Positions 35,149-51,620 of a stretch of DNA of 64,000 bases are shown here, piece after piece. The translations under genes were made by a program, and so were the position numbers. Numbering within the stretch: the first letter of the stretch is position 1; the number at the start of each line of letters is the position of its first letter. The notes beneath the pieces were generated by a model. That model searched no databases. It saw only the letters and a list, made by a program, of their open reading frames with translations, and was not told where the DNA came from. Origin of the DNA: Chitinibacter sp. SCUT-21. Lineage in GTDB: Bacteria; Pseudomonadota; Gammaproteobacteria; Burkholderiales; Chitinibacteraceae. The stretch spans positions 2,108,001-2,172,000 of the forward strand of contig CP102611.1 of the NCBI GenBank assembly GCA_041874755.1, in the 5' to 3' direction.

Positions 35149-36756
35149 ATGAACTGGACTATCAAATCAATTACTTTGGCAGTGGCCCTTGCTGTTGGTG
35201 GCACTGCATTTGCTGCCAACGTACCAAAAGGCGTGCAACTGCACCCAGTACAAGAATTAACGCGCACGAATGGTTCTGAGCCAGAAACGCTCGATCCAGC
35301 CAATGTTGAAACCGTTCCTGCAGCGAATATCGCGATTGATCTGTTTGAAGGTCTGACGGCGATTGATGCATCAGGCAAAGTTGTGCCAGGCGTGGCAGAA
35401 AGCTGGAAACGTGTTGATGACACGACTTGGACTTTCAAAATCCGCAAAGACGCGAAATTTAGCAATGGCCAAGCCATTACTGCGGATGATTTTGTCTATT
35501 CATTCCGCCGCTTTATCGATCCAAAACAAGCATCCAACTACAGCACTGCATTTGGTATTTTCTTTGTCAACGGCAAAGAAGCAGCCGAAGGCAAAATGCC
35601 AACCGACAAGTTGGGCGTGCGTGCAGTAGATAAAACTACTTTTGAAGTTAAAACCAATGGTCCAGTGGCATTCTTGCCAGAACTATTGGCAAACCCAAAC
35701 TTTGCGCCAGTACACCGCGCAACAGTGGAAAAATTCGGTAAAGACTGGGTAAAACCAGGCAACCTCGTTGGTAACGGCGCTTATGTGCTGAAAGAATGGA
35801 AAGTGAACAGCAAACTGGTTGCGGAAAAGAACCCGAACTACTGGAACGCTAAAAACATTCCAATTACCAAAGTAAGCTACTTGCCGATTGAATCGCAAGA
35901 TGCAGCGCAAAAACTCTACCTGTCTGGCGAAGCTGACTGGACTTTAGAAATCACGCCAAACAGCTATACCAAACTGAAGGCAGAAATGCCAAAAGATTTG
36001 CGCAATTCACTCGGTCTTGGTATTCGCTACTACAGCTTGAATAACCAAGACCCATTGCTCAAAGACGTGCGCGTTCGTAAAGCGTTGAACTTGGTTCTGG
36101 ATCGCGATTTGCTGGCGAATAAAGTCACTGCTGATGGCCAACCACCTGCGTACAGCGTGATGGTGAATGGCGTGGCTGGTGCGAAACCTGTTCCGTACGA
36201 ATGGGCAAAATGGCCAATGGCAAAACGCGTTGATGAAGCGAAAAAATTGCTGGCTGCTGCGGGTGTAAAACCTGGCACCAAGCTCAATTTCGTTTACAAC
36301 ACTAGCGAATACCATAAAAAAATGGCGATCTGGGCCGCTTCTGAGTGGAAATCTAAACTCGGTTTAGATACTCAAATGGAAAACCTGGAATTCAAAGTGT
36401 TGGTGAAAAAACGTCACGATGGCGACTACCAAATTGCGCGTAACGGCTGGGTTGCTGATTACAACGACGCAACGTCATTCACTACGTTGATCGAGTGTGG
36501 CTCTGATCAGAACGACAACAAAAACTGCAACCAAAAAGCGCAGGAGTTGTTTAAGCAAGCAGCAGCAACAACTGATCAAGCTAAGCGTAGCCAATTGCTG
36601 ACCGAAGGTACGCGTTTGGTGATGGAAGATTACCCAATTATTCCATTGCTGCAATACACCTACCCACGTTTGGTGAAACCGTATGTGGGTGGTTATGATC
36701 AGAAGAACGTGACTGAGCGTCGCCGTACGCAAGATCACTACATCATCAAGCACTAA
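35149..36756 (+). CDS. oppA: Oligopeptide-binding periplasmic protein OppA
   Basis: 535 residues with a signal peptide (MNWTIKSITLAVALAVGGTAFA). SBP family 5 features: TNGSEPETLDPANVE, DLFEGLTAIDASGKVVPGVAESW, TFKIRKDAKFSNGQ, and NGWVADYNDATSF near the C terminus, all typical of OppA. It binds oligopeptides in the periplasm for OppBCDF. RBS GAGAGG upstream. A strong terminator separates it from oppB, consistent with binding protein made in excess. Confidence 0.94.
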   Translation: MNWTIKSITLAVALAVGGTAFAANVPKGVQLHPVQELTRTNGSEPETLDPANVETVPAANIAIDLFEGLTAIDASGKVVPGVAESWKRVDDTTWTFKIRKDAKFSNGQAITADDFVYSFRRFIDPKQASNYSTAFGIFFVNGKEAAEGKMPTDKLGVRAVDKTTFEVKTNGPVAFLPELLANPNFAPVHRATVEKFGKDWVKPGNLVGNGAYVLKEWKVNSKLVAEKNPNYWNAKNIPITKVSYLPIESQDAAQKLYLSGEADWTLEITPNSYTKLKAEMPKDLRNSLGLGIRYYSLNNQDPLLKDVRVRKALNLVLDRDLLANKVTADGQPPAYSVMVNGVAGAKPVPYEWAKWPMAKRVDEAKKLLAAAGVKPGTKLNFVYNTSEYHKKMAIWAASEWKSKLGLDTQMENLEFKVLVKKRHDGDYQIARNGWVADYNDATSFTTLIECGSDQNDNKNCNQKAQELFKQAAATTDQAKRSQLLTEGTRLVMEDYPIIPLLQYTYPRLVKPYVGGYDQKNVTERRRTQDHYIIKH

Positions 36757-37109
36757 GCTCGGTTATTTGGTTTACCCAAGCCCCGGCCACTATAGTGGCT
36801 GGGGCTTGTTTTTATCTGCGCCTCTGATTGATGCTGTTCGGGATACTACTTAGGAGTATTCCCCAATCGGAAACGTCACAATTTGCTCGGGGGTATATAC
36901 CCTGTAGTGTTTTGTCTTAAATGCGCAGAAAAAATGTCGACTTTTACCGAAGTTTTAATCCTGCGCAAAGTAAATAGTTGCACTAAATAGTACAAAGTAA
37001 ATGAGGCTTGGTGATCCATTACAGCCTGCCAAGTTTCAGTAACTGCTTTCGTGCCATAGAGTAATCAGGCCCACTTCAACCAGTGTTTGCCTTTTTTCGG
37101 AGTATCCCT
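36757..37109. other. oppA-oppB intergenic region
   Basis: 353 bp. Holds the oppA terminator, a perfect 12-bp palindrome GGGTATATACCC at 36891-36902, and an AT-rich leader before oppB. No credible ORF. Confidence 0.65.
36777..36814 (+). terminator. Strong terminator after oppA
   Basis: CAAGCCCCGGCCAC (36777-36790) pairs with GTGGCTGGGGCTTG (36795-36808), one G-U, TATA loop, then TTTTTAT. Confidence 0.93.
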
Positions 37110-38030
37110 ATGTGGTCCTATGCGCTACGTCGCTTGTTGGCGACGATCCCGACCATGCTGGCGGTGATTACCGTCTGTTATTTGCTGCTACACGCAACTC
37201 CCGGTGGTCCATTTGATACCGAGCGTAAGATTTCTGAAGCGGTGTTGGCCAATTTGAACGCCAAATACCACTTGGATTTGCCCTTGTGGCAACAGTATTT
37301 GTACTACCTCAAAGGCCTGCTACAAGGCGATTTGGGCGCGTCATTCCGCTACGCCGACTGGTCGGTAAATGAACTTGTTGCTGCAGCCTTGCCAGTATCG
37401 TTGGCCATTGGTGGCATCGCGATGGCCTTGGCCCTGCTAATCGGCACTGTGTTGGGTATTACCGCGGCTCTGCGCCAAAACAGCATTATCGATTACTTCG
37501 TGATGTTCCTCGGTAACTTGGGTAGTGCAGTGCCATCGTTTGTAATCGGTCCGGTCTTGGTGCTGGTATTCGGTGTGTGGCTGCATTGGTTGCCTGCGGG
37601 TGGTTGGCAGCACTTTGAAGTGCAATACATGATCTTGCCGATCGCTTTGCTCACCGTCATTAATATGGCCACGATTGGCCGCGTGATGCGCGGCAGCTTG
37701 ATCGAGGTGCTCAATAGTAACTTTATCCGCACCGCGCGCGCCAAAGGCTTGCCAACGCGCACCGTGATTTTGCGCCACGCGCTCAAACCTGCGATGTTGC
37801 CTGTGGTTTCAGTGATGGGCCCGCTAACGATTTCGTCGATAGCCTCTGCGGTGGTGACTGAGACTGTGTTCTCGCTGCCAGGCTTGGGTAAATTGATCGT
37901 CAACGGCGCATCGAACCGTGACTACACCTTGGTGCTGGGCTTAGTCGTGCTCGTTACCGTGTTTGCAGTATTGCTCAATCTGATCGTCGATCTGATTTAT
38001 GCAATGCTCGATCCGAAAATCCGCTACTAA
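37110..38030 (+). CDS. oppB: Oligopeptide ABC transporter permease OppB
   Basis: 306 residues from the ATG at 37110 (MWSYALRRLLATIPTMLAV), with CGGAG 7 nt upstream; the earlier start at 37083 lacks this support. Six membrane helices; HATPGGPFDTERKISEAVLANL and the EAA loop RGSLIEVLNSNFIRTARAKGL are typical of OppB. Forms the channel with OppC. Confidence 0.94.
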   Translation: MWSYALRRLLATIPTMLAVITVCYLLLHATPGGPFDTERKISEAVLANLNAKYHLDLPLWQQYLYYLKGLLQGDLGASFRYADWSVNELVAAALPVSLAIGGIAMALALLIGTVLGITAALRQNSIIDYFVMFLGNLGSAVPSFVIGPVLVLVFGVWLHWLPAGGWQHFEVQYMILPIALLTVINMATIGRVMRGSLIEVLNSNFIRTARAKGLPTRTVILRHALKPAMLPVVSVMGPLTISSIASAVVTETVFSLPGLGKLIVNGASNRDYTLVLGLVVLVTVFAVLLNLIVDLIYAMLDPKIRY

Positions 38031-38041
38031 GGGCTGGCCGT

Positions 38042-38956
38042 ATGTTAATGAATAAAAATAAAGAGATTTTGGAAGCTGCCGCCGACGTCATGGCGGCGCC
38101 GCAGATCGCTAGCCGTAGCCCATGGGCCGATGCACGCCGCCGCTTTTTGCGCAATAAAGCAGCCGTGCTCAGTTTGGTGCTACTGTCTTTGATTACCTTG
38201 GCCTGTGTGATCGGCCCGATGATCTTGCCGCATGAATACGATGCGACCGATTGGGACGCGATGGGCATTGCGCCGACGCTGCAAAATTGGCACTTATTCG
38301 GGACCGATGAAATGGGGCGTGATTTGCTGGTACGTACCCTGATGGGTGGCCGCGTTTCGCTCTTTGTGGGTTTGATGGCGACTTTGGCATCGGTCACGCT
38401 CGGTATTTTGTGGGGCGCAACGGCCGGTTTTCTTGGCGGTAAAGTCGACAGCTTTATGATGCGTATCGTCGACATGATGTACGCCGTGCCTTATCTGTTG
38501 ATCGCGATTTTGATGGTGACTTTGCTCGGTCGCGAGTTCTATCTGGTCGTTCTGACGATTACCGTATTTAGTTGGATGGATATGGCCCGTGTAGTGCGCG
38601 GTCAAACGCTGTCGCTGAAATCCAAAGAGTTTATCGAAGCCGCGCGCTGTATCGGCGTACCGACGTATAAATTGATTTTGCGCCATATCGTGCCGAACTT
38701 GCTGGGTATTGTCGTGATCTACACGACGATTACCGTGCCCGGCGTGATTTTGACTGAATCGGTCTTGTCGTTCTTGGGCCTTGGCGTGCAAGAGCCAATG
38801 ACGAGCTGGGGCGTGTTGATTCACGACGGCGCTGCGGTCATGGAAAACACGCCGTGGATGCTGCTGTTTCCGGGTGTGATGCTCAGCTTAACGCTGTACT
38901 GCGCGAACTATATTGGCGACGGTATGCGCGATGCGCTTGACCCGAAAGATCGTTAA
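38042..38956 (+). CDS. oppC: Oligopeptide ABC transporter permease OppC
   Basis: 304 residues. RRRFLRNKAAVLSLVLLSLI, HLFGTDEMGRDLLVRTLMGGRVSLFVG and the EAA loop VRGQTLSLKSKEFIEAARCIG match OppC. Eleven bases after oppB; an ATG at 38048 is an alternative start. Confidence 0.94.
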   Translation: MLMNKNKEILEAAADVMAAPQIASRSPWADARRRFLRNKAAVLSLVLLSLITLACVIGPMILPHEYDATDWDAMGIAPTLQNWHLFGTDEMGRDLLVRTLMGGRVSLFVGLMATLASVTLGILWGATAGFLGGKVDSFMMRIVDMMYAVPYLLIAILMVTLLGREFYLVVLTITVFSWMDMARVVRGQTLSLKSKEFIEAARCIGVPTYKLILRHIVPNLLGIVVIYTTITVPGVILTESVLSFLGLGVQEPMTSWGVLIHDGAAVMENTPWMLLFPGVMLSLTLYCANYIGDGMRDALDPKDR

Positions 38957-38965
38957 GGAAAGACC

Positions 38966-39961
38966 ATGACTTTATTATCTGTAAATAATCTAGGCGTGGA
39001 CTTTGGCACGCACGATGGTGTGGTCAGCGCAGTGAACGGCGTGTCTTTCGAGCTTGATCGCGGCCAGACCTTGGGTATCGTTGGCGAATCAGGTTCAGGT
39101 AAAAGCCAGACTGTATTGGCGATGATGGGTTTGTTGGCCAAAAACGGTAAACCAAGCGGCGAAGTGCTATTCGAAGGCAAAAACCTGCTGACGATGCCAA
39201 CGCGTGATTTAAACCGCATTCGCGGTAATCGCGTCGCGATGATTTTCCAGGACCCGATGACCTCGCTCAACCCGTATCTGACGGTTGAACGTCAGATGAC
39301 CGAGGTGTTGGAGCTACACAAAAACATGACGCGCCGCGCGGCCAAAACACGCGCGATTGAATTGCTCGAAGCGGTGAAAATCCCTGAAGCTGCGCGCCGA
39401 GTTGATATGTATCCGCACGAGTTTTCGGGCGGTATGCGTCAGCGTGTGATGATCGCGATGGCGTTGTTGTGTGAGCCTGAAGTATTGATTGCGGATGAGC
39501 CAACGACGGCGCTCGACGTGACCGTTCAAGCGCAGATCATTAGCCTGATGCGCGATTTGCAGCGCGATTTTGGCACCGCGATTGTGATGATTACGCACGA
39601 TTTAGGTGTTGTCGCTGGTTTGTGCGATCGCGTGATGGTGATGTACGGCGGCCGCGTGATGGAGCAAGGCACGGCTGATCAAGTGTTCTACCAGCCAAGT
39701 CATCCGTACACCGTCGGTTTGCTGGGCGCTTTGCCGCGACTGGACCACGATGGTGATAAGCTGGTGTCAATTCCGGGCAACCCGCCGAATATGGCCCACA
39801 TGCCGAAAGGCTGTGCCTTTAGCGAACGCTGTACTTTGGTTGGCGCACAATGCCATGACGAGCGACCAAGCCTGATCCAATTACCAAACGGTGTACAGCG
39901 CGCCTGCCATAAATCACTGGAAGAAGTGGTCCAGCTAAAGGAGTTAAGCCATGTCCGCTGA
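38966..39961 (+). CDS. oppD: Oligopeptide ABC transporter ATP-binding protein OppD
   Basis: 331 residues. Walker [10 protein letters not shown]-loop region MIFQDPMTSLNPYLTV, signature FSGGMRQR, Walker [13 protein letters not shown], and the C-terminal cysteine segment CAFSERCTLVGAQC. RBS AAGGAAAG. Ends 11 bp inside oppF. Confidence 0.95.
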   Translation: MTLLSVNNLGVDFGTHDGVVSAVNGVSFELDRGQTLGIVGESGSGKSQTVLAMMGLLAKNGKPSGEVLFEGKNLLTMPTRDLNRIRGNRVAMIFQDPMTSLNPYLTVERQMTEVLELHKNMTRRAAKTRAIELLEAVKIPEAARRVDMYPHEFSGGMRQRVMIAMALLCEPEVLIADEPTTALDVTVQAQIISLMRDLQRDFGTAIVMITHDLGVVAGLCDRVMVMYGGRVMEQGTADQVFYQPSHPYTVGLLGALPRLDHDGDKLVSIPGNPPNMAHMPKGCAFSERCTLVGAQCHDERPSLIQLPNGVQRACHKSLEEVVQLKELSHVR

Positions 39962-40940
39962 ACGCAAGCCTATTCTGTCGATTCGTGATTTAAAAGTTCA
40001 CTTTAGAGTAAAAAGCGATAAAGGCTTTTTCCAACCAACGCGCACGCTGAAAGCCGTGGATGGTGTGTCCTTTGATTTGCACGAAGGCGAAACGCTCGGC
40101 ATCGTCGGTGAATCGGGCTGTGGTAAATCGACTTTATCGCGCGGTATTTTAAATTTAATTCCCGCCACCAGCGGCAGCATTGTGTGGATGGGCAAAGAGC
40201 TGAACCAAGCCAGCGCCAAAGAATGGCAAGCCGTGCGCCGCGAAGTGCAAATGATCTTCCAAGACCCGCTCGCCTCGCTCGACCCGCGGATGACGGTGGC
40301 GCAAATTATCGCCGAGCCGCTGCACACGCATTACCCTGAACTCGGTAAAGAAGAAGTGATGAGCCGCGTGCGCGCGATGATGAAGCGCGTCGGCTTGACC
40401 GAGCAGCAAATCAACCGTTATCCGCACGAATTCTCAGGTGGCCAGTGCCAGCGTATCGGTATTGCGCGTGCGCTGATTTTGCAACCGAAGTTGATTATTT
40501 GTGACGAGCCAGTATCGGCGCTCGATGTATCGATTCAGGCGCAGATCATCAACTTGCTCAAAGAATTGCAGCAAGAAATGGGCTTGGCGCTGATCTTTAT
40601 CGCGCACGATCTGGCCGTGGTGAAGCATATTTCTGATCGCATTTTGGTGATGTATTTGGGCCGCGAAATGGAGTTGGCTGAAAAACACGCCTTGTACGAT
40701 CATCCGCGCCACCCGTACACCAAGGCGCTGTTGTCGGCGATTCCGATTCCCGATCCAGAATTGGAGCGCAGCAAGGTGATCCAAATTCTGCACGGCGATC
40801 TGCCTTCGCCGATCAACCCGCCAAGCGGCTGCGTCTTCCGCACACGCTGCCCACGTGCGCAAACGATCTGCAGCGAGCAAGTGCCACAACTGCGCGTTGT
40901 AGACGATAGATCCCAAGTCAGCTGCTTGATTTCTGACTAA
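39951..40940 (+). CDS. oppF: Oligopeptide ABC transporter ATP-binding protein OppF
   Basis: 329 residues. Walker [10 protein letters not shown], signature FSGGQCQR, Walker B LIICDEPVSALD, and C-terminal CVFRTRCPRAQTIC. Completes the Opp importer. A strong terminator follows. Confidence 0.95.
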   Translation: MSAERKPILSIRDLKVHFRVKSDKGFFQPTRTLKAVDGVSFDLHEGETLGIVGESGCGKSTLSRGILNLIPATSGSIVWMGKELNQASAKEWQAVRREVQMIFQDPLASLDPRMTVAQIIAEPLHTHYPELGKEEVMSRVRAMMKRVGLTEQQINRYPHEFSGGQCQRIGIARALILQPKLIICDEPVSALDVSIQAQIINLLKELQQEMGLALIFIAHDLAVVKHISDRILVMYLGREMELAEKHALYDHPRHPYTKALLSAIPIPDPELERSKVIQILHGDLPSPINPPSGCVFRTRCPRAQTICSEQVPQLRVVDDRSQVSCLISD

Positions 40941-40970
40941 TAAAAAAGGACGCTAAGGCGTCCTTTTTTA
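40941..40970 (+). terminator. Terminator of the oppBCDF operon
   Basis: TAAAAAAGGACGC (40941-40953) and GCGTCCTTTTTTA (40958-40970) form a perfect 13-bp stem with a TAAG loop and T-run. Confidence 0.93.
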
Positions 40971-41019: not shown

Positions 41020-41445
41020 TTAGCTTAATGCTTTGCTTAGTGCCGCGACCGAGGCTGAATCAGGCAGGTGAGCCAATGAACCTAAAAACGCTTGGCGAAT
41101 ATTGTCACTTCTTTGCGTGAGTACTTCTTCGCTGACAGCCAATTGGTCAGCGAGGTGCTTAAGTTGTGCTTTTTCTTCCGCGCTATAGTTGCCGTCGGCA
41201 AAAGCGCAGGCCAGACATAAATCGATGACCAGTTCACGATCGGCGGGTGCTGGTAAATGGCTGGGGTCAAATGGTGCAGGCTGGGCTGGATCAAATGTGC
41301 CTAGCTCGGGAGCGCTGCTCCAGAATTCGGCAATCAGGGCAGTTTCTGCAGGATGCAGGCCGTGAAGACGTGCGACGCTGAGCATGGCGTAACAAGCTTG
41401 GCGAATTTGTTCGGCATTTAAAGGATCGATTTGAGCGTTTTGCAT
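41020..41445 (-). CDS. TerB-like protein, last gene of the PspA-AAA operon
   Basis: 141 residues, all helical and soluble. CLACAFADGNYSAEEKAQLKHLADQL followed by VSEEVL resembles the TerB/DjlA helical metal-associated domain found in tellurite-resistance and membrane-stress clusters. Ten bases after the AAA ATPase gene, RBS TAGGAAA. TerB proteins are thought to work at the membrane with partner complexes; the role here is inferred from context. Confidence 0.72.
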   Translation of the reverse strand: MQNAQIDPLNAEQIRQACYAMLSVARLHGLHPAETALIAEFWSSAPELGTFDPAQPAPFDPSHLPAPADRELVIDLCLACAFADGNYSAEEKAQLKHLADQLAVSEEVLTQRSDNIRQAFLGSLAHLPDSASVAALSKALS

Positions 41446-41455
41446 AATGGGTTTC

Positions 41456-43246
41456 CTAATTCAGTAGCGTACTAAGTTGGGATAATTCAGCGCGAAGTTC
41501 AGTTAAATCAGCCGATTTCATCGTTGTCGGCAACCACGAGCGGCGCGAGCTTTCAAAGACAGCCAAGAGCTCCATCATGCGTATCATTTGCGCATTATTG
41601 GGGCGAATAAAATCATTCGCCGCTTGCTGCAATAATGGCGTGCTCAGTGTCACTGGCTGGGTTTCAAACAGCGACGCCGCGAGCAAAACGACGGCTTCTA
41701 AATCGGCATTAGAGTAATTGGCAATGCTCTCGCCCAGCTCATCGAGCGAGCCGGCACTTGCATCAAAAGCAATGGCGTGGCGTTTAAGCAGTGACTGTAA
41801 AATCAGGCTGCGCTCGGCGACGGTTTGTGCATAAAAAAACGGAATTTTCACGTCCAACCGACCCGGGCGTTTAATATCACCGTCCAATTTATCGGGGCGA
41901 TTGGTCATTAAAATTGTCAGCACATTGCCGCGATTGTCGGTGTCCGACATAAACGTTTTCAAGCGGGCAATCACGCGCGAGCTGGTGCCGCCATCGTTGT
42001 CTTCGCTGCGCGAACCAAAGCTGCGATCACCTTCATCAATAATCAAGGCCACAGGCCCCATGACTTTGAGTAGCGATAAAACACGTTCGAGGTTGGTTTC
42101 GGTGGCGCCAACCCATTGTGAGCGGAAGTTTTTCAGCATAACGCCAGTTAAACCCGCCGATTTCAAAAAGGCGTTGATAACAAAGGTTTTACCCGAGCCC
42201 ATCGGCCCAACTGCCAACACGCCCATCGGCGCACGCTGTAAATCATTGGCGCGTAGCGTTTGGGCAATACGCATTAGCTCATCGCGAATGGCTTGATTGC
42301 CGCCAACTACGCTTAGATCATGCTTGGGCTGAATAATTTCGATCAGTCCGGCGCATTCTTTTTCTAAAATTTCACGCTTTCTTTGCTGGATGATGGTTAA
42401 AAACGCATCTTCTTGCTGTGGTGAACTTTGCTGCGGCGCGATCAGTTTTTGAATCGCTTGTGGGCTCATCCCTGCCGTGACTTTGGTGTACGTTTGCGCT
42501 CGCGCTTCGGCATCGGCTGAATCTTTGAGTAGATTCAGAATCAGCGCGTAACGCTCTTGCTCAGCCAAGGTGTTAGTTTGTGCGCCTTGGCTGACTATGC
42601 TGCCAATTTGCACCAAGCGCAGCCCTGCGGTATGCGCCGCAATGCGGCTAATTTCATCGCTACTCATGCCAGCCGCTTGGACGGACAAGGCTTGCTGGCG
42701 CAAGGAAAGGTTGGGGAGTGCAATATCGATCGCGACGATGCGCGGATTGCTGAGCAAAGCTGGCGCGAGAGTCGATAAAGATTCGGCAACTAAAATCACA
42801 ATCGAATCGGCCGCATCTAATTCGGCAGCCAATGACCAGCGATGCAAGGTGGTAATGGCCCCGCGTTCGTCGAACGATAGGGCATGCGTTTCGGCGGCTG
42901 GGAATATGGTTTCGGCGTACGGTACGATTAGGCCGATATTGGCGTTTTGGGCTTGCATTTGATTTTCAAGATAATCAAATGCACCCATAAGCGAGCGATC
43001 GTCACCGCTAGGGGGCTTTATGCTGGGTGCTGCGCGTACCGTGCGGATGCCTTGGGCTAGCGTTAACTCGAAAACGCCCGCTTTTTTTTGTAGCAACTGA
43101 TCGAGCACTTGCTGCATTTGGCACAGCTGATTGCCTAGCAAATATTGGTCAAACACATTGCCGTGCAGAATAAAAACGCTGGCTTCACCGGCTTGGTAAC
43201 GCTCGCGGATTTCTGTGGCCCAGTCGGGTAAGGTTTGCTTGTCCAT
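41456..43246 (-). CDS. AAA+ ATPase of the Ycf46/SpoVK/Vps4 type
   Basis: 596 residues. The C-terminal half is an intact classical AAA domain: Walker A GPMGSGKT (347-354), pore-loop-like FRSQWVGATE (374-383), Walker B ALIIDEGD (400-407), and second region of homology TNRPDKLD...RPGRLD with finger arginines near 460 and 463. The N-terminal half (about 20-230; VFILHGNVFDQYLL, SIVILVAES, IVAIDIALPNL) has AAA-like strand patterns but no Walker A, suggesting a degenerate AAA module as in Ycf46. Adjacent to PspA, whose fold is ESCRT-III, it is a good candidate remodeller or disassemblase of PspA polymers; that pairing is inference. Confidence 0.85.
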   Translation of the reverse strand: MDKQTLPDWATEIRERYQAGEASVFILHGNVFDQYLLGNQLCQMQQVLDQLLQKKAGVFELTLAQGIRTVRAAPSIKPPSGDDRSLMGAFDYLENQMQAQNANIGLIVPYAETIFPAAETHALSFDERGAITTLHRWSLAAELDAADSIVILVAESLSTLAPALLSNPRIVAIDIALPNLSLRQQALSVQAAGMSSDEISRIAAHTAGLRLVQIGSIVSQGAQTNTLAEQERYALILNLLKDSADAEARAQTYTKVTAGMSPQAIQKLIAPQQSSPQQEDAFLTIIQQRKREILEKECAGLIEIIQPKHDLSVVGGNQAIRDELMRIAQTLRANDLQRAPMGVLAVGPMGSGKTFVINAFLKSAGLTGVMLKNFRSQWVGATETNLERVLSLLKVMGPVALIIDEGDRSFGSRSEDNDGGTSSRVIARLKTFMSDTDNRGNVLTILMTNRPDKLDGDIKRPGRLDVKIPFFYAQTVAERSLILQSLLKRHAIAFDASAGSLDELGESIANYSNADLEAVVLLAASLFETQPVTLSTPLLQQAANDFIRPNNAQMIRMMELLAVFESSRRSWLPTTMKSADLTELRAELSQLSTLLN

Positions 43247-43257
43247 GTGTTTTTGGC

Positions 43258-43971
43258 TTACAGCGTTTTATTACTGCTGGCTTGGCTATTGCCTGCGCGA
43301 GCTTGCTTTAGCTGATCCAATTTGGCGCGCGCGTTAATGCTGCCGCTGGTTTGGCGTAGCTTGGCCAATTGTGTGTCCAGATCAGATTCTTTTAACTCAT
43401 CGCCTAATTTTGCGCGCGCAACGGTATTGTTGATGTGCTCGCGTACATTATCCAAGGCGCGTACTTCGGCATCGATCGAGAGGCCTTCGAGTTGATCTTG
43501 AATTTGAATACGCGCTTGAGCGCTTTGAAATTTCGCCAGCATCGCATCGCGTTCGGCATTCAGTTTTTGGATTTCAGCCTTCATGCTATTGAGCGAAGCC
43601 TTGGCCTCATCGGCATCTTTTTGCGCTTCGGCCAAATCCGCGCTGAGCGCTTGAATAGATGCTTCAAGCGCTTCTTTTTTCTGAATCAAGATCATCGCCA
43701 GTTCATCTTGGTTGGTCGCGAGCGCAGCTTCCAAATCCGCAGCAACCTGCGTGAGCTCGCGCTGTGCTTTGTTTAAATTAGCATCAATGGTTTCGCGGCG
43801 GCGAATGACAGCGGCGGTGACGTCTTTTAGGCGAGAGTGTTGGCTCATCATCGCGTCAATGCGATTTTGATACGCAATTTCTGGGTGCTGCTTTTCTACA
43901 TCGGTAATCCATAGCGACATAAAACCACGAAATAAATTGGCCAGTCGCGCCGCTAATTTGATGTCAGACAT
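43258..43971 (-). CDS. PspA/IM30 (ESCRT-III superfamily) protein
   Basis: 237 residues from the ATG at 43971, preceded by AGAGGG. N-terminal helix (LAARLANLFRGFMSLWITDVE) followed by long coiled coil, including RRRETIDANLNKAQRELTQVAADLE, and a C-terminal helical part, as in PspA/Vipp1. These form rods or rings that bind and remodel stressed inner membrane. Divergent from E. coli PspA, and there is no pspF/pspB/pspC nearby; instead it sits in an operon with an AAA+ ATPase. Confidence 0.8.
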   Translation of the reverse strand: MSDIKLAARLANLFRGFMSLWITDVEKQHPEIAYQNRIDAMMSQHSRLKDVTAAVIRRRETIDANLNKAQRELTQVAADLEAALATNQDELAMILIQKKEALEASIQALSADLAEAQKDADEAKASLNSMKAEIQKLNAERDAMLAKFQSAQARIQIQDQLEGLSIDAEVRALDNVREHINNTVARAKLGDELKESDLDTQLAKLRQTSGSINARAKLDQLKQARAGNSQASSNKTL

Positions 43972-43996
43972 AATCAACCCTCTAATTTAAATTGGT

Positions 43997-44842
43997 TCAA
44001 CGTTGAGCTTGCTTGGTGCGAGCCATGGTTTTATTGGGTGTAGCTTCGAGATTGAAATTGAGCTCGTCGGCGATTTCGTCTTCAATTTCTTGGCGCAATT
44101 GCAAATTACTAATCGCATCGGTCAGGCGGATGCCATCTCGCTCTGATGAGTTACTCATCACCAATTGGTAAATTTCAGCCAGCTGGTCCGGCAGCGTTAA
44201 CACTGCCGCTTCAATCGCACTGCGCCGACTGAGCATGCGCTGATGGCGGGCTAATAAATTTTGGTATTCATCGCGCGCACGCGAGAGCTGCCGCACATCC
44301 GCGCCCAGTGCCGGTTTGCTGATTTGGGCATTGAGATCGTTCAGTTTGGCACTGATCTTACGTAAATCTACCGAGGCGGCACGTTCATCAATGCTGAGTA
44401 GCGACAGCCTTAAACTCAGATATTGTGTCGGTACGCTCTGAATTTTTTGTAAATCAGTGCCATTCAAAATCCCCGTTTGTTCTGAAGCGTGTTCAATCAA
44501 GCTGCGAACTTGTTGCCCCAGCATGGCGAACATTTGCTCAATTTCACGGGCGGTTTGTTTACTGCCACATTTGGCGAAAATTTCATCGAGCATGCGCTCG
44601 CTACTCATTGCCGTTTTTTGTTGCAGACGACGCTGATTGGCCCAAGCTCTAAAACTGGGCATATCAGGAATAAACAAACAGGCCAACGTTTCAAGTGCAA
44701 CCGTGGCTAATAAAGGAAAAGCAGCGCCAACGAGGCCAAATGGAAACGAACAAATGACAGCGGTGGCTAGCCCCGCGAGCAACAGCGTAATGTTGCCCGG
44801 GCTCTGAATAAAATCAGCTAAATAATTGCGAGAGTCTGCCAT
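43997..44842 (-). CDS. Unknown membrane protein with cytoplasmic coiled coil
   Basis: 281 residues. I do not recognise the family. Two hydrophobic segments near the N terminus (about 17-34 and 37-56) are followed by a long charged helical region (LSLRLSLLSIDERAASVDLRKIS onward) predicted to be coiled coil, ending basic. It lies between the SBP-LysM gene and pspA with 8- and 19-nt gaps. A plausible role is inner-membrane anchor or adaptor for PspA, as PspB/PspC are in enterics; this is inference. Confidence 0.6.
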   Translation of the reverse strand: MADSRNYLADFIQSPGNITLLLAGLATAVICSFPFGLVGAAFPLLATVALETLACLFIPDMPSFRAWANQRRLQQKTAMSSERMLDEIFAKCGSKQTAREIEQMFAMLGQQVRSLIEHASEQTGILNGTDLQKIQSVPTQYLSLRLSLLSIDERAASVDLRKISAKLNDLNAQISKPALGADVRQLSRARDEYQNLLARHQRMLSRRSAIEAAVLTLPDQLAEIYQLVMSNSSERDGIRLTDAISNLQLRQEIEDEIADELNFNLEATPNKTMARTKQAQR

Positions 44843-44850
44843 TGTCGGAA

Positions 44851-46017
44851 TTAGATTTTCGGTAGAACGAGTTTCTGACCGACTTGAATCAAATTAGGGT
44901 TAGGCAGGTTATTGCGCGCTTCAATTTGACGATAGCGGTTTTGATCACCCAGCTCTCGCGTTGCAATCAAAGAGAGCGTATCGCCTGATTTAACCACGTA
45001 GATTTTTTCCCCATTCGCAGCTGCGCCCGCTTGAACGACTTTGCTACTGATAAAGTATTTGCGCAGCAAATTCAGGTATTCATTCGATTCTTTAACTTTG
45101 CTAATGGCCAGATTGAGGTTTTGCAGTAATTCGCTGTCATTCGCACGAACGCCGATTTTGTAACGCACGTCCGAGTTAGGCAGCTTAGAAATCGCCATCA
45201 CCAAATCGGTATTTTCAACCTCGGAAACACCAAACGGGTAGTCATAAATAATCGCGTCGACTTGCCCGCTGTGAATGGCTCGCGCCATCCAATCGCGTGC
45301 GCCATTGGTCGTCGCATCGCTAAGTTCAATCAACTGTGCGCCGGGTAAATTTTTCTGCGCATAAGCTTTTACGTCTGGGTCGCCCTGCAAAATGCCGATT
45401 CGTTTACCCGTAACATCGGCGATATCACGGATAGTAGAACGAGGTCCGGTGATCAGCGTGTAACCAAAGTCCGAAATATAAGGAACGGTGTAAACCACCC
45501 CCGCCAAATCGCCATCGGCAAAGGTGAGGCCATCAATGGCGATGTCGACACTTGGATTGCCACGATTATCCGTTTTGATTAACTGCTCAGGAACTTCGGG
45601 ATAGGTGTCGACGGCGTGATCGGTGTCGATCACGATTTGTTTAGCATTTTTCGTAAATTCAGCTTGCGCAAACAGTAGGCGCATAAATTCAACGTTAAAA
45701 CCTTTCGCTATGCCATTATCGGTATAAAAGAATGGCTTGGCGGGCGATTGCACGCTGACACGAACTACGCCTTTGTTAATGATGGATTGATAGGTATTGA
45801 AGTTATTTTGCGTGTTTTTAGCTTCGGTGCTTTGAGGGGCTGTGTTAGGGGCAGTTTCAGCGTTGTGCTTGGCAACTGGCGCAGCACTCGTCACAATTTC
45901 AGTGCTTTGTTCTGCCTGAGCAGGATTATTCGACTTATATAAATTCCAAGCGACTGATCCCACCGTGCCCAACACGATGACGGCGATCAGGCCTTTAGCC
46001 AAAGGTGTGAGTTGCAT
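44851..46017 (-). CDS. Membrane-anchored solute-binding (SBP3) protein with C-terminal LysM domain
   Basis: 388 residues. A membrane anchor at about 8-25, a low-complexity linker, then an SBP family 3 domain (about 77-330; GIAKGFNVEFMRLLFAQAEF, DIAIDGLTFADGDLAGVVYTVPY). A LysM domain closes the protein (YVVKSGDTLSLIATRELGD ... NLPNPNLIQVGQKLVLP, 338-388). The anchor places the binding and LysM domains in the periplasm, where LysM would contact peptidoglycan. No transporter genes nearby, so a sensor role for the downstream PspA-AAA module is suggested by context only. Confidence 0.78.
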   Translation of the reverse strand: MQLTPLAKGLIAVIVLGTVGSVAWNLYKSNNPAQAEQSTEIVTSAAPVAKHNAETAPNTAPQSTEAKNTQNNFNTYQSIINKGVVRVSVQSPAKPFFYTDNGIAKGFNVEFMRLLFAQAEFTKNAKQIVIDTDHAVDTYPEVPEQLIKTDNRGNPSVDIAIDGLTFADGDLAGVVYTVPYISDFGYTLITGPRSTIRDIADVTGKRIGILQGDPDVKAYAQKNLPGAQLIELSDATTNGARDWMARAIHSGQVDAIIYDYPFGVSEVENTDLVMAISKLPNSDVRYKIGVRANDSELLQNLNLAISKVKESNEYLNLLRKYFISSKVVQAGAAANGEKIYVVKSGDTLSLIATRELGDQNRYRQIEARNNLPNPNLIQVGQKLVLPKI

Positions 46018-46046
46018 GACAATTACCTATCTGGATAAACAAAAAA

Positions 46047-46685
46047 CTAGCTGAGCGTTCCACCGAGTTTGCGCGAGATGCTTTCAAGTCGTTGGATTTC
46101 TGATTGCAAACGCACTTGTTCCTGCTGTGTGGCCGCGACAGTGCTATTCGCTTGAGTGTGCAATTCTTGCAATGCCTTGGCATGATCAGCTGAGGCCAAC
46201 TCGGCGGCGGCGTGCAATTGGGCAATTTGCTCGTTAATGTCTTTGCGCAATGCTTCATATTGCTGATTGAGCGCGTTTTCCTGCGCAGTTTCGGCATCGC
46301 GAGTCGAGATGATGTTCGCATTGAGCGTATTGCCATGGTTACGTAATGCAGTGACTTTTCGATTGGCATCGTCTAGTACTTCAGCCAAATCCCAAGAGTC
46401 ATCGGCCGCATCCATCGCCGCTACTGCTGCCCGCTGGTTGGCTGGATCCATGGCGCCTAAACCATCGAGGATTTTTAGTAGGCGCTCTGCCGGGAAAGCA
46501 ATGCTCGCTACGCCTTGCTGCTGATAAATATCATTCAGGCTTTGCTCTCTGGGCTGTGTTTCAGTGAGGTTGATCTGCTCGGCGCTGTTAATGGGGGCCG
46601 CGATCTCAACTTGATCGGCGACGGAGTTTGGTTCTGTTTCTGCAACTACCAGCCCAGCTTTCACTAGTAACGATTTCAAGCCCAC
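46047..46685 (-). CDS. Coiled-coil protein, first gene of the PspA-AAA operon
   Basis: 212 residues starting at GTG with Shine-Dalgarno AAGGGA 6 nt upstream. No signal peptide or membrane segment. The first 50 residues are Glu/Gln-rich and probably disordered. A segment IAFPAERLLKILDGLGAMDPANQRAAVAAMDAADDSWDL follows, and the C-terminal 100 residues are a coiled coil. Family not recognised. Likely cytoplasmic scaffold or adaptor of the operon. Confidence 0.6.
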   Translation of the reverse strand: MGLKSLLVKAGLVVAETEPNSVADQVEIAAPINSAEQINLTETQPREQSLNDIYQQQGVASIAFPAERLLKILDGLGAMDPANQRAAVAAMDAADDSWDLAEVLDDANRKVTALRNHGNTLNANIISTRDAETAQENALNQQYEALRKDINEQIAQLHAAAELASADHAKALQELHTQANSTVAATQQEQVRLQSEIQRLESISRKLGGTLS

Positions 46686-46981: not shown

Positions 46982-47857
46982 TTATTTTGAGGCGGGTTCT
47001 TGGATCGTGGCCACCATGCGTTGAACAGTCACTTCAGGAAAACTGTCTAAAGCTTTAAAATGCGGTGTGAAGCGAAACCCCATACTTTGATATAAGCTGG
47101 TTGCGCTGATATTCAGTGGGGAAACAAACAAAGCCACTTCTGCCGCACCTGCCGCTGCAGCCAATGCCAGAACTCGCTCAATCAGCGCTTTACCAATTCC
47201 GGTTCCGCGATGAGTAGGCGCTACCCACATGGCGATTAGATTAAATTCCTCAGCAGTTTTCACTCCCCCGACGAGCCCGGCCACTTGCTCACCCACGCGG
47301 GCGATGAAGTAGGTTGGCGGCGTGCGATTGGCTGCGCGGTCTTGCCAATCGGCATCGCTATAGGCGGCGACGGTGGCATAACTGAGGCCAAATGCGGTCG
47401 GTGCATCGAGTAGTGATTGCAGTCGGACCTGTTTCAGATCGCGCCAGTCGTTTTCTGTGCAAGCTTGAATTTCGAAAGACATCAGTTCGCCAGTGGCTTT
47501 AAGCCGAGTTTTCTTTTGCACCCAAGCGCCAACAATGACGGTGGGTAAGCAGATTAAAAAACCCAACCACCAGTTACTGCCAGTCTCGGCGACAAAAATC
47601 GAGCCTAAAGTACCGCTTGCGGCGGCGTGTAGTAGGGGCTGGCTGATGGCCAGTTGGGCGGTGAGATAGCCTGCCATTAAAAAGCTAAGCAATCGAAAGG
47701 ATAACAGCATGATGCTGGCACTGGCAGCAATCAAGTGGTTTTCCGCCGCTTGAGCCCAAAGCAAAGTCAGCAAGCCAAAAAAGAAGGCGACAAAGCTTGC
47801 GACCACCATCACCAAAAGCCCGCTGGCAATTGCTGAAAACTTGATGTGTGAGAACAT
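46982..47857 (-). CDS. Four-helix membrane domain fused to a GNAT acetyltransferase
   Basis: 291 residues from the ATG at 47857, preceded by AGGGGGAAAA; the longer ORF start lacks this RBS. Four hydrophobic segments in the first 125 residues, then a basic linker (QKKTRLKATGEL) and a GNAT domain (about 140-290) with acetyl-CoA motif APTHRGTGIGKALIERVLALA and SPLNISATSLYQSMGF. It would present the acetyltransferase at the inner face of the membrane. Substrate unknown. Confidence 0.8.
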   Translation of the reverse strand: MFSHIKFSAIASGLLVMVVASFVAFFFGLLTLLWAQAAENHLIAASASIMLLSFRLLSFLMAGYLTAQLAISQPLLHAAASGTLGSIFVAETGSNWWLGFLICLPTVIVGAWVQKKTRLKATGELMSFEIQACTENDWRDLKQVRLQSLLDAPTAFGLSYATVAAYSDADWQDRAANRTPPTYFIARVGEQVAGLVGGVKTAEEFNLIAMWVAPTHRGTGIGKALIERVLALAAAAGAAEVALFVSPLNISATSLYQSMGFRFTPHFKALDSFPEVTVQRMVATIQEPASK

Positions 47858-47951
47858 TTTTCCCCCTGCTCTTGAGCTCGTCAGCCGCAGCACATGCGGC
47901 CCTGATTTGGGTAATACGTCATTTCTTACTGCGTTTTAATAGCGTAGATAT

Positions 47952-48008: not shown

Positions 48009-51000
48009 TTAAAATGGATAAGTGGGCGTTTGGTTGGCCAAATTGAGCCATTGACCTGTTGTAGGCTGATTATGCTTGCCTTTGGCAAGGGCATAAAACT
48101 CCTCAGGCAAAATCGGCAAGCCCAGCGCCGCGACCGAATCGAGCGCGGTGGCAGAAACGCTCATACCGTACATCGCAAAGATCTTGCGCAAATCTTTGCC
48201 GATGATTTTGGAGCTCAACACATACAGCAGATCTGGGTTGCTGATGGTGTTATTGCTAAACAGACCCATTGCGTATTTGTCTTTGCTATTGGCATCCCAA
48301 GCGCGGGCGACGAGTCGATCGCCTTTGGTCAGCAGCGTGAAGTAATCCAGGCTGGCTTCCATGCTTGGAATCGCCTCTAAAGCGCGGTATTTGGTAAATA
48401 GGAAGGCCAACTGGAAGTGAACGGCCCGCATTGGGTCTTGCCCTTTGTTCATATCCCACAAGCTTTCTTGCATCTGCAAAAGCTGCGTATCGCCACTGGT
48501 TCCGCTATTGCGGTTCGTCACTATGCGCTGATATAAGCCAGGATGATCAGTGGCATGGCCGGTATCGACACCCAGCGTTTTAAATTGGCGCATCATTTGG
48601 ATGCTGGCCAGAATATTGTTATCGCATTCGACCACGCAACCTTTGCCGTTAAAGGTAATGCGCATCACCCTTTGTACTGTGTTATGTCCCAGTTCATGCG
48701 CATGACCCCAGCCAGTGCCGCCGATTCCCGAAAAACCATCGGAAGGATTGCCCGAACACAAGAAACCACAAGCTGCGATCCAACCAATGAAATGCTGCAC
48801 GCCCGGCGCACGATGGATGGGGCCGCTACAATCCCAGCCAAATTGGGTACACAACACCGATACATTGTTGCTCATTGGCATATTGTTGTAGCCGTTGGCA
48901 ATGTGATTCGAGTCAAACAGACTACCTTTGACTTGGTCCACAATCACTTTGCGCGGGTCTTCATTCCCCATGGCTTTTTTGGCATACGCGATGGTTTGTT
49001 GAATCTCACCGCCAACGAATTTGGACGTTTGCCAACCAAAATCACCTCGATTTAGCGCCGCGACTGCTTCGGCAATGTCGGCGTCACTTTGCGGTTTGGT
49101 AAAGTCAAAATGTGCGTATTTGGCCGCACCACGGATGCGTAAAGTAATGCTTTGCCCCGCGGTTGCACCGCTATATCTCAGCATTAATGGCCCGCCAAAT
49201 GGCGTGATAAAGCTGTTCTCTACACCGTTTTCAAGCGGAATCGGGAAGGATTGTGGTTCCCGTGGGCGTTTATAGCCTTGGCTTTCATTGTCGGTTAGCG
49301 GATTGCCATAAGCGCGTACATAGCTGGTTTGCACAAATAATTGGCCCGCCTCGGCTTTATCGACCACCTCGATATACACCGGCTTGCCTGGAATAGCGCC
49401 GCGCCCAATTGCGGTAATGCCCGAGCCTTGTGCAATCGTTACTTCAATCGTTTCAGCTGTGCTGCTAACAGGGATTTGTTGTGCGGCTGCAGGCATATAA
49501 TCGCCTTGGCCACTGGCGCTGACTGTAGTTGAGTTGCGGTTATAGGCAACCCATGAATCCGCCGCGAAAGTGTTGAGGAATTTGACCGGCTGAGTGCTGC
49601 GGGAAATGGTGCCGTACTGAACCGTTGGGCGATATAAATCAGCCCATTCAATAAGCAAACGGTGCAAATCAGTGCTGCTGTCGGCAAAAATATTAATGCC
49701 CCGTTTTTGCATTAATGCCATTTCATCTTGGAGCTGTGAAATCGCATTTATGGCGTCGGTTTCTGAATTCACGGTGAAATTAGGATTACTACCCACCATT
49801 AAATTCAACGCCTTGATCAGTGCCCCCATTTGATCTGCTCGCTGAATCGAAGCGGCCACCGTCCGATCTGCGCCGACTGCAAAACCAGCGGTAGGAGCAT
49901 AGTAGTTGCCGGGGTAGCCGCCCAACTCCATGCCTATGCCTTGCACAACTTTACGCCCACCTGCAGAGTCGCCCCAGCTAGGATGCATATAAATAATCGC
50001 TTTGCCCTGCGCTTGATATTTGCGAACTTGTTCACTCAGAGCCGGATCGTCTTTGACGCTTGCACCAAAAACCAGTACGTCGGCGTTTTGCCAGCAGGTG
50101 TTATTGCTCGCGACCAAATCGCATGAAATGGCGAGCGGAGTTTTGCCGAGTAATTGAATAAAGCGGCTGACCGTAGGTGCATCATAACCGGCGGTGGCAA
50201 AACGAATGGTCGTAGGGAGCGGTCCGCTCGCTTTGCCGGTGACAACCCAATTAAACGCGCGAGTGAAAAACGGTAAATGCTGGGTTTCGCGCGATTGCGT
50301 CGCCATCCAGCTGAGGACATTGGCGCCATAGGCCAGTGCGCGTCCAGCGCCAAACTGCGAAATGGCCGCCATCCCACTGCCATCATCGGCAACGATTAAC
50401 GGTTGTGCCGAGATAGAGTTGGAACGGAAAATCTCAATACTATTTTTGGTGTGATTCAGCGCTAAATTAACGCTGTTATCGCCATAAATATCATTAATCG
50501 CCGCCGATTGTTGTTGCTGATAGCTGCTGGCACGTTGAGTCGCCAAGGCAAGCGCTTGCGCCAGCCGATCTGATACTGGGGCTGGTGTCGGATTAATGCC
50601 GCTGCCGGGATTGGGTGTGGCCTCAGGCGTATCGTCTGGCGATTGTGTGACGACAGAGTGGGGTGTACTGCTCGGCGTTGGGGTGGTGCTGACTATCGGC
50701 GAATTGGTCGGTTCTGGTATGGGTGACACAGTAACCATAGGGATTGCTGTTACAATCGGTCTTGGTTTCACTGTGGGTTTAGGTGTACTGCTAGTTATCG
50801 GTGGCGTACTTGCACCTGCAGTCGGGCTTGGTGTGCTTCCCGGTTTTGTCGCCGGGCCAGCTGTGGCAACGCCATCGGCTGAGCTACAGGGGCCTAAGTC
50901 GATCCAGTTTCTCGAGTCCTTGCGTTTTCTCCAATATTTATCGCTGAAAATATTCGTGCTGACCCGCTTTGGGTTTTTATTCGCATTCGGATTTTTTGCT

Positions 51001-51620
51001 TGATAGTTTTTCCCCGCAAATGATACCTGTGCACCCGTGGCGTACTGTAAGCTGCCAGACCAAGTAGCCGCACATTTTTGTACCACACTCATGATGACAG
51101 CTGGTGGAGTGGAGCTCGCCGTAACGGGGGTGATTGCTACACCATAATTGCTCGACTTGACCTGGAGCCGAGTGGCGGTTGCTTGAGGAGTTGTTATTAC
51201 GCTTGCGGTTGCACTACCCGTTAGTTCACTGACTGTGCTTGCTAGTGTGCTAGTTGTGACTAGGTGGTTGACTGATTCCTGGTCAGCGGCCTGCTGCTCG
51301 ATGGCTGGCGCAGCCTCGAAGGAGGATGGGTTTGTGTTATCAGTAGCGGTTTGCGCAGTGACTAAAGTTGGGATTGCTTGATTCGTGTCGCTGATGGTAC
51401 TGGCGGTACCAATTTCCCGCCATAAGCTTGGTGAGCGATTGGGTAGCCAACTTGGGGCTGTAATGTGGCTTTTGAGTGCTTGGTAATCACGGCCCTCAAA
51501 GGTCACAATATCGTTGATTTGATATGCGCCATTGTTTTGCCATAGCGGGGCGGCTAATGCCAGATTGGATATCAACAGTAATGCTGCACAGGTCAATCTT
51601 TGTGGAGGGAGGGGGATCAT
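48009..51620 (-). CDS. Secreted M60/IMPa-like metalloprotease with two chitin-binding modules
   Basis: 1203 residues with a signal peptide. Two CBM5/12-like modules are visible: PLWQNNGAYQINDIVTFEGRDYQAL (about 24-70) and TWSGSLQYATGAQVSFAGKNYQAK (about 186-245). A Pro/Thr/Ser-rich linker of about 100 residues follows. The rest matches IMPa/M60 glycoprotein peptidases, with the gluzincin zinc site HELGH (bases 48684-48698). Such enzymes cleave O-glycoproteins such as mucins. Carbohydrate-binding domains plus this protease suggest attack on glycosylated or chitin-associated protein outside the cell. Ordinary IMPa lacks the chitin-binding front. Confidence 0.87.
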   Translation of the reverse strand: MIPLPPQRLTCAALLLISNLALAAPLWQNNGAYQINDIVTFEGRDYQALKSHITAPSWLPNRSPSLWREIGTASTISDTNQAIPTLVTAQTATDNTNPSSFEAAPAIEQQAADQESVNHLVTTSTLASTVSELTGSATASVITTPQATATRLQVKSSNYGVAITPVTASSTPPAVIMSVVQKCAATWSGSLQYATGAQVSFAGKNYQAKNPNANKNPKRVSTNIFSDKYWRKRKDSRNWIDLGPCSSADGVATAGPATKPGSTPSPTAGASTPPITSSTPKPTVKPRPIVTAIPMVTVSPIPEPTNSPIVSTTPTPSSTPHSVVTQSPDDTPEATPNPGSGINPTPAPVSDRLAQALALATQRASSYQQQQSAAINDIYGDNSVNLALNHTKNSIEIFRSNSISAQPLIVADDGSGMAAISQFGAGRALAYGANVLSWMATQSRETQHLPFFTRAFNWVVTGKASGPLPTTIRFATAGYDAPTVSRFIQLLGKTPLAISCDLVASNNTCWQNADVLVFGASVKDDPALSEQVRKYQAQGKAIIYMHPSWGDSAGGRKVVQGIGMELGGYPGNYYAPTAGFAVGADRTVAASIQRADQMGALIKALNLMVGSNPNFTVNSETDAINAISQLQDEMALMQKRGINIFADSSTDLHRLLIEWADLYRPTVQYGTISRSTQPVKFLNTFAADSWVAYNRNSTTVSASGQGDYMPAAAQQIPVSSTAETIEVTIAQGSGITAIGRGAIPGKPVYIEVVDKAEAGQLFVQTSYVRAYGNPLTDNESQGYKRPREPQSFPIPLENGVENSFITPFGGPLMLRYSGATAGQSITLRIRGAAKYAHFDFTKPQSDADIAEAVAALNRGDFGWQTSKFVGGEIQQTIAYAKKAMGNEDPRKVIVDQVKGSLFDSNHIANGYNNMPMSNNVSVLCTQFGWDCSGPIHRAPGVQHFIGWIAACGFLCSGNPSDGFSGIGGTGWGHAHELGHNTVQRVMRITFNGKGCVVECDNNILASIQMMRQFKTLGVDTGHATDHPGLYQRIVTNRNSGTSGDTQLLQMQESLWDMNKGQDPMRAVHFQLAFLFTKYRALEAIPSMEASLDYFTLLTKGDRLVARAWDANSKDKYAMGLFSNNTISNPDLLYVLSSKIIGKDLRKIFAMYGMSVSATALDSVAALGLPILPEEFYALAKGKHNQPTTGQWLNLANQTPTYPF

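Follow-up and report, generated by a model that had tools for sequence, protein, structure and literature searches.

Operons that join a gene for PspA to genes for a double-AAA ATPase, an ATP-binding cassette (ABC) transporter and a PBPB-OmpA protein have been described by Ravi et al. (2024, mSystems, PMC11237479). In the portions of that paper available to us, an ATP-dependent remodelling like that of the endosomal sorting complexes required for transport (ESCRT) is already proposed, a link to solute transport is suggested for the ABC-containing version, and the regulation of assembly in PspA homologues that have no AAA ATPase associated with them is stated as unknown. For PspA, chaperones or PspF are suggested, by analogy with Vps4, in the accessible part of a structural paper on the protein. 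The way in which bacteria disassemble PspA polymers is thus an open question, and it is addressed by a six-gene operon of Chitinibacter sp. SCUT-21 described here, found in a 64,000-nucleotide stretch of its genome (GCA_041874755.1, contig CP102611.1, positions 2,108,001 to 2,172,000; hereafter the window). We give an even chance to this operon encoding a machine that remodels membranes by means of PspA and includes both a motor for disassembly and a periplasmic receptor.

Organization of the operon

The six genes lie on the minus strand between 41020 and 46685 of the window, and all open reading frames (ORFs) were found where a sequence-only reading of this DNA had placed them, with gaps of 29, 8, 25, 11 and 10 nucleotides, in agreement with the 8-29 nucleotides of that reading. 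They run in the order CC6, SBP3-LysM, DUF4, PspA, AAA+ ATPase and TerB-like protein, where SBP stands for solute-binding protein and DUF4 is a working name. The features are as follows.

46047 to 46685, minus strand: CC6, coiled-coil protein of 212 amino acids (aa), first gene, GTG start, predicted cytoplasmic (ORF without hydrophobic segment)
44851 to 46017, minus strand: anchored SBP_bac_3 and LysM protein, 388 aa (Pfam, hydrophobicity, anchor pattern)
43997 to 44842, minus strand: DUF4, helical protein with two transmembrane (TM) segments, 281 aa (ORF, predicted structure)
43258 to 43971, minus strand: divergent PspA/IM30 protein, 237 aa (PF04012, profile match to Vipp1/PspA)
43261 to 43269, minus strand: codons for the C-terminal Lys-Thr-Leu of PspA, a [KR]-x-[LMI]-COOH tail (tail comparison)
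41456 to 43246, minus strand: tandem AAA+ ATPase, 596 aa (Pfam, structural model)
42347 to 43237, minus strand: first AAA-like half of the ATPase, about aa 4-300, without Walker A (model and structural alignment)
41666 to 42232, minus strand: second, active-looking AAA domain of the ATPase, aa 339-527 (motifs)
41020 to 41445, minus strand: TerB-like protein, 141 aa, last gene (PF05099)
40942 to 40969, no strand assigned: inverted repeat with A and T runs between the TerB gene and a convergent ABC ATPase gene (read in the sequence)

The start of PspA was taken as the ATG at 43971; the mechanically longest ORF would begin at TTG 43977. A hydrophobicity scan showed no membrane-like segment in CC6, PspA or the TerB-like protein. 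The gene set, its conservation and its families are regarded as established at the level of sequence.

PspA protein and its C-terminal tail

The fourth gene encodes the sole PF04012 (PspA_IM30) match of this one-contig 3.45-Mb genome, at 56.1 bits against a cut-off of 33.9, and a profile of 16 sequences made for it matches solved Vipp1/PspA chains with a best E of 3e-17. These matches confirm the kinship with PspA/IM30 that had been read from the letters; the generic coiled coil that was to count against it is not what was found. The protein was rejected as an orthologue of the classical phage-shock PspA (TIGR02977), with 25.8 bits against a cut-off of 242.95.

PspA C-termini of the form [KR]-[TQNS]-[LMI] are found in all 46 PspA rows of the typed loci defined below (45 distinct genomes), and that of the window is K-T-L. 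A search of 150 genomes of the phylum supplied 30 control PspAs, and the broader [KR]-x-[LMI]-COOH tail occurs in none of them; these controls are 30 of the 59 places listed, mostly high-scoring members, and none has such an ATPase within its locus. The tail is also absent from all 279 proteins matched in the loci by the other hidden Markov models (HMMs). Among the 120 matches listed of 3734 database PspA relatives, 120 end in [KR]-x-M, 112 of them in the stricter form. Across 41 different tails, position -3 is always K or R and has 0.28 bit, against 1.6-2.7 bits for the 22 positions before it, and the linker varies in length; a constant end behind a variable linker argues for a function of the tail, which is a candidate handle for the ATPase. 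A search of 369 genomes of the class with the PspA profile matched five: the window and L133, with both ATPase and tail, L135 and L136, with the ATPase and without the tail, and L137, with neither.

Tandem AAA+ ATPase

The ATPase matches Pfam AAA with 83.1 bits (cut-off 21.2) and models as a Cdc48/p97-like tandem AAA protein with a dead first domain, p97/Cdc48 and Rix7 being its full-length fold matches. The alignments with p97 start near model residue 4, at about residue 200 of p97, so that no N domain is apparent, and the sole hydrophobic stretch of the protein (from aa 148) falls inside the modelled first AAA fold. In 41 aligned proteins the Walker A pattern is found 41 times in the second half and never in the first; the intact Walker A/B of the sequence-only reading is seen in the second AAA domain. 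The second domain possesses Walker A, Walker B DE, a W-V-G pore loop, the sensor 1 N and arginine fingers, and this supports the view that the ATPase has the motifs expected for a substrate-threading AAA motor.

The same reading had called the ATPase Ycf46/Vps4-type, which is inexact, and the models tried, with no Ycf46 model among them, do not bear out a member of the Vps4 family. An active classical AAA cassette with an aromatic pore loop, as in Vps4/CdvC, is present. Membership in Vps4/CdvC was rejected: the 7 Pfam families listed at E <= 1 include neither MIT nor the Vps4 C-terminal family, and the CdvC equivalog model gives 33.2 bits against a cut-off of 650. The CDC48 subfamily model likewise gives 74.3 bits against 802.65.

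Conservation and locus types

The ATPase is rare among near relatives: with the Chitinibacter genome itself counted, it occurs in 2 of 43 genomes from the family and in 6 of 300 from the order. When species genomes were scanned with an alignment of seven ATPase sequences, at least 76 loci were obtained, and 83 loci (the window, 6 from the family and order searches and 76 from the scan) were typed by home-made HMMs. Four Borreliella loci among the scan matches are off-target (29% identity over 155-171 residues). All six slots occur in window order in 27 of the 83 loci, from 26 distinct genomes (L009 and L015 are one contig), the sensor slot being counted as filled by any anchored protein type; L022 would be the 28th except for an over-long ORF call. 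The six genes do co-occur elsewhere and form a conserved unit in many genomes; the lack of co-occurrence that was to count against the sequence-only reading is not what was seen. PspA is present near 46 of the 83 ATPase genes, TerB near 38, DUF4 near 37, and the CC6 family is matched in 33 loci. In the other 37 loci only the ATPase is matched, the off-targets, some short contigs and loci of a sister ATPase clade included. This clade (L047-L086), mostly of Myxococcota and other former Deltaproteobacteria, has a recurring neighbourhood of its own with no PspA match nearby. The two distant PspA-AAA pairs without the tail (L135 and L136, read more widely as L138, 5985-10566, and L139, 3649-8615) have an anchored OmpA protein nearby and another gene order.

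The loci were divided into three types by their periplasmic part. Type I, with the SBP3-LysM protein, includes the window, the order relatives L010-L012 and the family relative L009/L015. Type II groups together 12 core-clade loci and L039, which has another gene order; their sensor is a protein of 558-624 aa with NMT1-like SBP and OmpA domains, and their operons also carry ABC permease and ABC ATPase genes. Type III consists of 16 loci from Rhodoferax, Hydrogenophaga and other betaproteobacteria, in which the anchored protein is short and matches Sel1 weakly, and a second, periplasmic protein possesses PG_binding_1 repeats and SBP_bac_8, the latter protein found in 16 of 16 and in L028 at a contig end. 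The anchor of type III thus sits on the small protein, not on the SBP protein. An SBP domain and a peptidoglycan-binding domain are united in all three types, of a different Pfam family each time, and the home-made HMMs found no permease in the operons of types I and III. For types II and III, Pfam was applied to the sensors of L016 and L026, which are 2 of the 16 type III loci, and to those of the three type II or II-like loci L013, L018 and L039, NMT1 falling just under its cut-off in L018; the other sensor-type labels rest on HMM or BLAST similarity. A 297-aa family without Pfam match stands just before PspA in 8 of the 12 type II loci (L013, 11934-12827), in L031 and also in L140; L031 carries it although no ABC, sensor or DUF4 match is found there.

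In a midpoint-rooted ATPase tree, a branch of 100/100 support separates each of types I and III from the remaining rows, and both lie among type II rows, which need 4 changes. The tree excluded L015 (on the contig of L009), L028 (assigned to type III from its SBP), L031, L036 and Borreliella, and kept only four rows of the sister clade. The nesting of types I and III among ABC-bearing relatives suggests that the transporter is dispensable. On the simplest reading, whose rooting is not proven, the ABC-bearing form came first, the receptor was replaced twice and the transporter was lost. What appears to be new is an exchangeable periplasmic module, with three SBP families and three peptidoglycan-binding families combined on one core.

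Candidate periplasmic sensor and its anchor

The 388-aa protein matches SBP_bac_3 with 35.6 bits (cut-off 26.4) at aa 85-322 and LysM with 42.0 bits (cut-off 20.9) at aa 340-386, and its N-terminus contains the anchor LTPLAKG and one TM segment; the proposed membrane-anchored SBP3-LysM protein is thereby verified. The SBP part aligns with solved amino-acid-binding proteins, and in AncQR, where the alignment is free of gaps, the Arg before the conserved PY faces Asp. Among 116 proteins parsed of 120 listed SBP3-LysM relatives, the residue at this place is D in 84, T in 21, E in 6, S in 5 and R in none. Since this arginine of amino-acid-binding SBPs, which holds the carboxylate of the ligand, is replaced, a standard amino acid is an unlikely ligand of the SBP3 domain.

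The anchor LTPL-x-[KR]-G is exact in 27 of 34 anchored-protein rows, with near variants in the other 7, and was found in none of the other ORFs of the loci (7164 ORFs in all) in a search that covered residues 1-200 of sensors and residues 1-80 of other ORFs. Among the 120 listed of 234 SBP3-LysM relatives only 15 have it exactly. Its count in type III is not independent, since the SBP and OmpA-type HMMs detect the short protein largely via the anchor; the independent evidence for that protein is its operon position. Plasmid records hold a single match to the SBP3-LysM protein, in a Burkholderia arboris record of 3.5 Mb. A relative from the order, of 6.9 Mb (G319), pairs an SBP3-LysM gene with one for a 275-aa two-TM coiled-coil protein (L126, 8439-10420), possibly a simpler two-gene relative. 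By eye the 275-aa protein was considered as ESCRT-III-like; no Pfam family passes its cut-off, the PspA and DUF4 HMMs miss it, and no claim is made.

CC6, DUF4 and TerB-like proteins

CC6 and DUF4 match no Pfam family over its cut-off. DUF4 has two hydrophobic segments near its N-terminus, in keeping with the two-TM protein first described, followed by a long helical part; its model (pLDDT 77.8) has no fold match at E <= 0.001. The assignment of the TerB-like protein also stood: its match to PF05099 covers only residues 67-107, at 27.3 bits against a cut-off of 24.4, and its relatives occupy the same operon place. A second TerB-family gene is found elsewhere in the genome.

Genomic context

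Among six genomes of the genus, only that of the window has the ATPase, and three congeners carry the flanking ABC ATPase gene. In the closest congener (G006, 94% identity) this gene is followed by one GGDEF gene and then by a relative of the SBP_bac_5 gene at 51905-53599, so that G006 lacks a block of some 10 kb that extends from the operon to a metalloprotease gene. The genes downstream of the ABC ATPase are wholly different in G005 and G009 over the 10 kb read. Base composition shows no sharp change across the operon.

The metalloprotease gene adjoining the operon (48009-51620, minus strand), within the block absent from G006, encodes 1203 aa with chitin-type CBM_5_12 and IMPa-type metalloprotease domains. 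Between it and the operon sits a 303-aa ORF (46982-47893, minus strand), of which the C-terminal half is a GNAT acetyltransferase and the N-terminal half is, by eye, membrane-spanning. SBP_bac_5 proteins are encoded on both flanks, at 35149-40940 (plus strand), where one such gene heads an oligopeptide-type ABC gene set, and at 51905-53599 (minus strand), beyond the metalloprotease gene. The inverted repeat at 40942-40969 is likely a bidirectional terminator shared by the TerB and convergent ABC ATPase genes; a consensus scan does not list it.

Proposed mechanism and alternative explanations

Like other proteins of the ESCRT-III superfamily, PspA would polymerise on the inner face of the inner membrane. 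The tandem AAA protein, with a dead first ring and an active second one, might engage the flexible K-T-L tail of PspA and thread or extract subunits, so that the polymer would be recycled or reshaped. The anchor of the SBP3-LysM protein would hold it in the inner membrane and LysM would tie it to peptidoglycan, and the binding of a ligand or an altered distance between membrane and wall could be signalled through the conserved anchor to DUF4 and CC6, by which PspA and the ATPase may be recruited or gated. An adaptor role for TerB is a guess. In its specific form, that a Cdc48-type motor reads a K-x-L/M tag on PspA while an exchangeable, peptidoglycan-tethered solute receptor decides whether the coat is built or removed, the proposal is a tentative one.

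Several observations weigh against the proposed mechanism. The ATPase stands without a PspA match nearby in 37 of the 83 loci (the four Borreliella off-targets and some short contigs included), so that this family has other uses, and L031 possesses PspA, ATPase and TerB but no CC6, sensor or DUF4 match. The pairs L138 and L139 lack the K-x-L/M tail, which is therefore not universal, and the 46 PspA rows are relatives, so a shared tail could partly reflect descent. In the tree the window ATPase sits on a long branch (0.76), and its composition is unusual. SBP3-LysM proteins are also found apart from the core genes: that of L126, without the exact anchor, is matched by sensor HMMs only, with no match to a core-gene HMM within 18 kb. 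Sigma-70-like sites occur at chance number, one of them upstream of the first gene (46783-46755); sigma-54-like patterns also occur at chance number, with no match listed between 44730 and 48585. The operon shows no sign of a psp-type stress promoter, and sigma-54 control as in classical psp was rejected, as no listed match lies near the first gene.

The operon might instead support solute uptake, the SBP feeding an ABC importer encoded elsewhere while PspA and the AAA protein only stabilise the membrane around the transporter. Such a role would fit the ABC permease and ATPase in the operons of the 12 core-clade relatives and L039, and the oligopeptide-type ABC genes with SBP_bac_5 binding proteins on the other strand next to the window operon; but the latter genes are convergent and outside the operon, their binding proteins belong to another family, no permease is matched in type I or III operons, whose 100/100 branches lie among the ABC-bearing relatives, and the SBP3 domain lacks the usual ligand arginine. 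We consider it unlikely. The missing arginine, replaced by D, T, E or S in every one of the 116 proteins parsed of the 120 listed, would on the other hand suit a ligand-free SBP that serves as a spacer between membrane and peptidoglycan, a ruler of envelope integrity from which a loss of tension frees PspA. A peptidoglycan-binding family was indeed found in every sensor type scanned, and in L138 and L139 as well, where no SBP family passes its cut-off. The recruitment of several SBP families is hard to explain for a mere spacer, and the SBP_bac_8 match of type III is strong (110.6 bits); we consider the ruler distinctly unlikely.

More doubtful again is that the ATPase acts on another client, DUF4, CC6 or a TerB complex, with PspA a passive membrane scaffold. 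The 37 of 83 AAA loci without PspA nearby and the two distant pairs without the tail point in this direction; PspA is nevertheless the commonest partner (46 of 83) and is retained in nine loci without CC6, sensor or DUF4 matches (L031, L041-L043, L046, L048, L058, L059, L066). Finally, the patchy spread of the ATPase (2 of 43 family and 6 of 300 order genomes) and a lineage-specific insertion relative to a congener could mark an island for phage defence or stress, as opposed to a housekeeping system of the envelope. A known defence system was rejected, as no PADLOC family model identifies the set (the best, IetA, reaches 38.5 bits around the AAA domain), and 72,556 plasmid records hold no ATPase match at E <= 1e-40; we regard such an island as highly improbable.

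PspA remodelling by a dedicated motor under a periplasmic receptor is the explanation we prefer. The operon names a motor, a three-residue candidate handle and a receptor, and so the disassembly of PspA becomes a testable question. If the repeated replacement of the periplasmic part is true, it would represent an unusual membrane-remodelling machine wired to interchangeable chemical inputs, and a core that is kept while its sensors differ offers a direct way to study the control of PspA, an ancient membrane-remodelling protein.

Comparison with known systems

With the classical Psp response of E. coli (pspFABC) the operon shares a member of the PspA family. It differs in that its PspA falls far under the equivalog cut-off (25.8 against 242.95 bits), no PspB, PspC or PspF is listed among the six proteins, and no sigma-54-like match is listed near the first gene.

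In ESCRT-III, the MIT-interacting motif (MIM) pairs with the MIT domain of Vps4. The window resembles ESCRT-III/Vps4 (CdvB/CdvC) in placing a gene for a presumed polymer of the ESCRT-III superfamily beside that of an AAA motor, and in a short C-terminal motif on the polymer subunit that may be the handle for the motor. It differs by a tandem AAA in place of one cassette, PspA in place of Snf7, and a K-x-L/M end as the motif. Cdc48/p97/Rix7 share with the window ATPase, as modelled, the two AAA cassettes and an RPGR-type arginine-finger motif, and differ from it in that its first cassette is without Walker A.

In domain make-up, as far as the text of Ravi et al. (PMC11237479) available to us goes, the operon resembles theirs, in which PspA stands beside a double AAA protein whose first copy is inactive and one protein joins a solute-binding to a peptidoglycan-binding domain; where theirs has PBPB-OmpA the window has SBP3-LysM, and 41020-46685 contains no ABC ATPase or permease. 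The words 'LysM', 'TerB', 'C-terminal motif', 'MIM' and 'degron' do not appear in its main text, nor were a shared anchor and an SBP_bac_8 and PG_binding_1 version found in the text available. No description of a PspA-AAA-TerB-LysM operon was found in the open literature searched, which did not cover the supplement of Ravi et al., and no direct evidence for such an ATPase remodelling PspA in the accessible parts of PMC11237479, PMC11746142, PMC10936438 and PMC9239133. The combination had first been taken as new. Since PspA, AAA, ABC and a solute- and peptidoglycan-binding protein are together in print (PMC11237479), the core idea is known; the SBP3-LysM version is the part not found in the text of that paper available to us. 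To the published operon the present comparison would add a conserved PspA tail as candidate handle, a common anchor, and an apparent exchange of receptors without the transporter.

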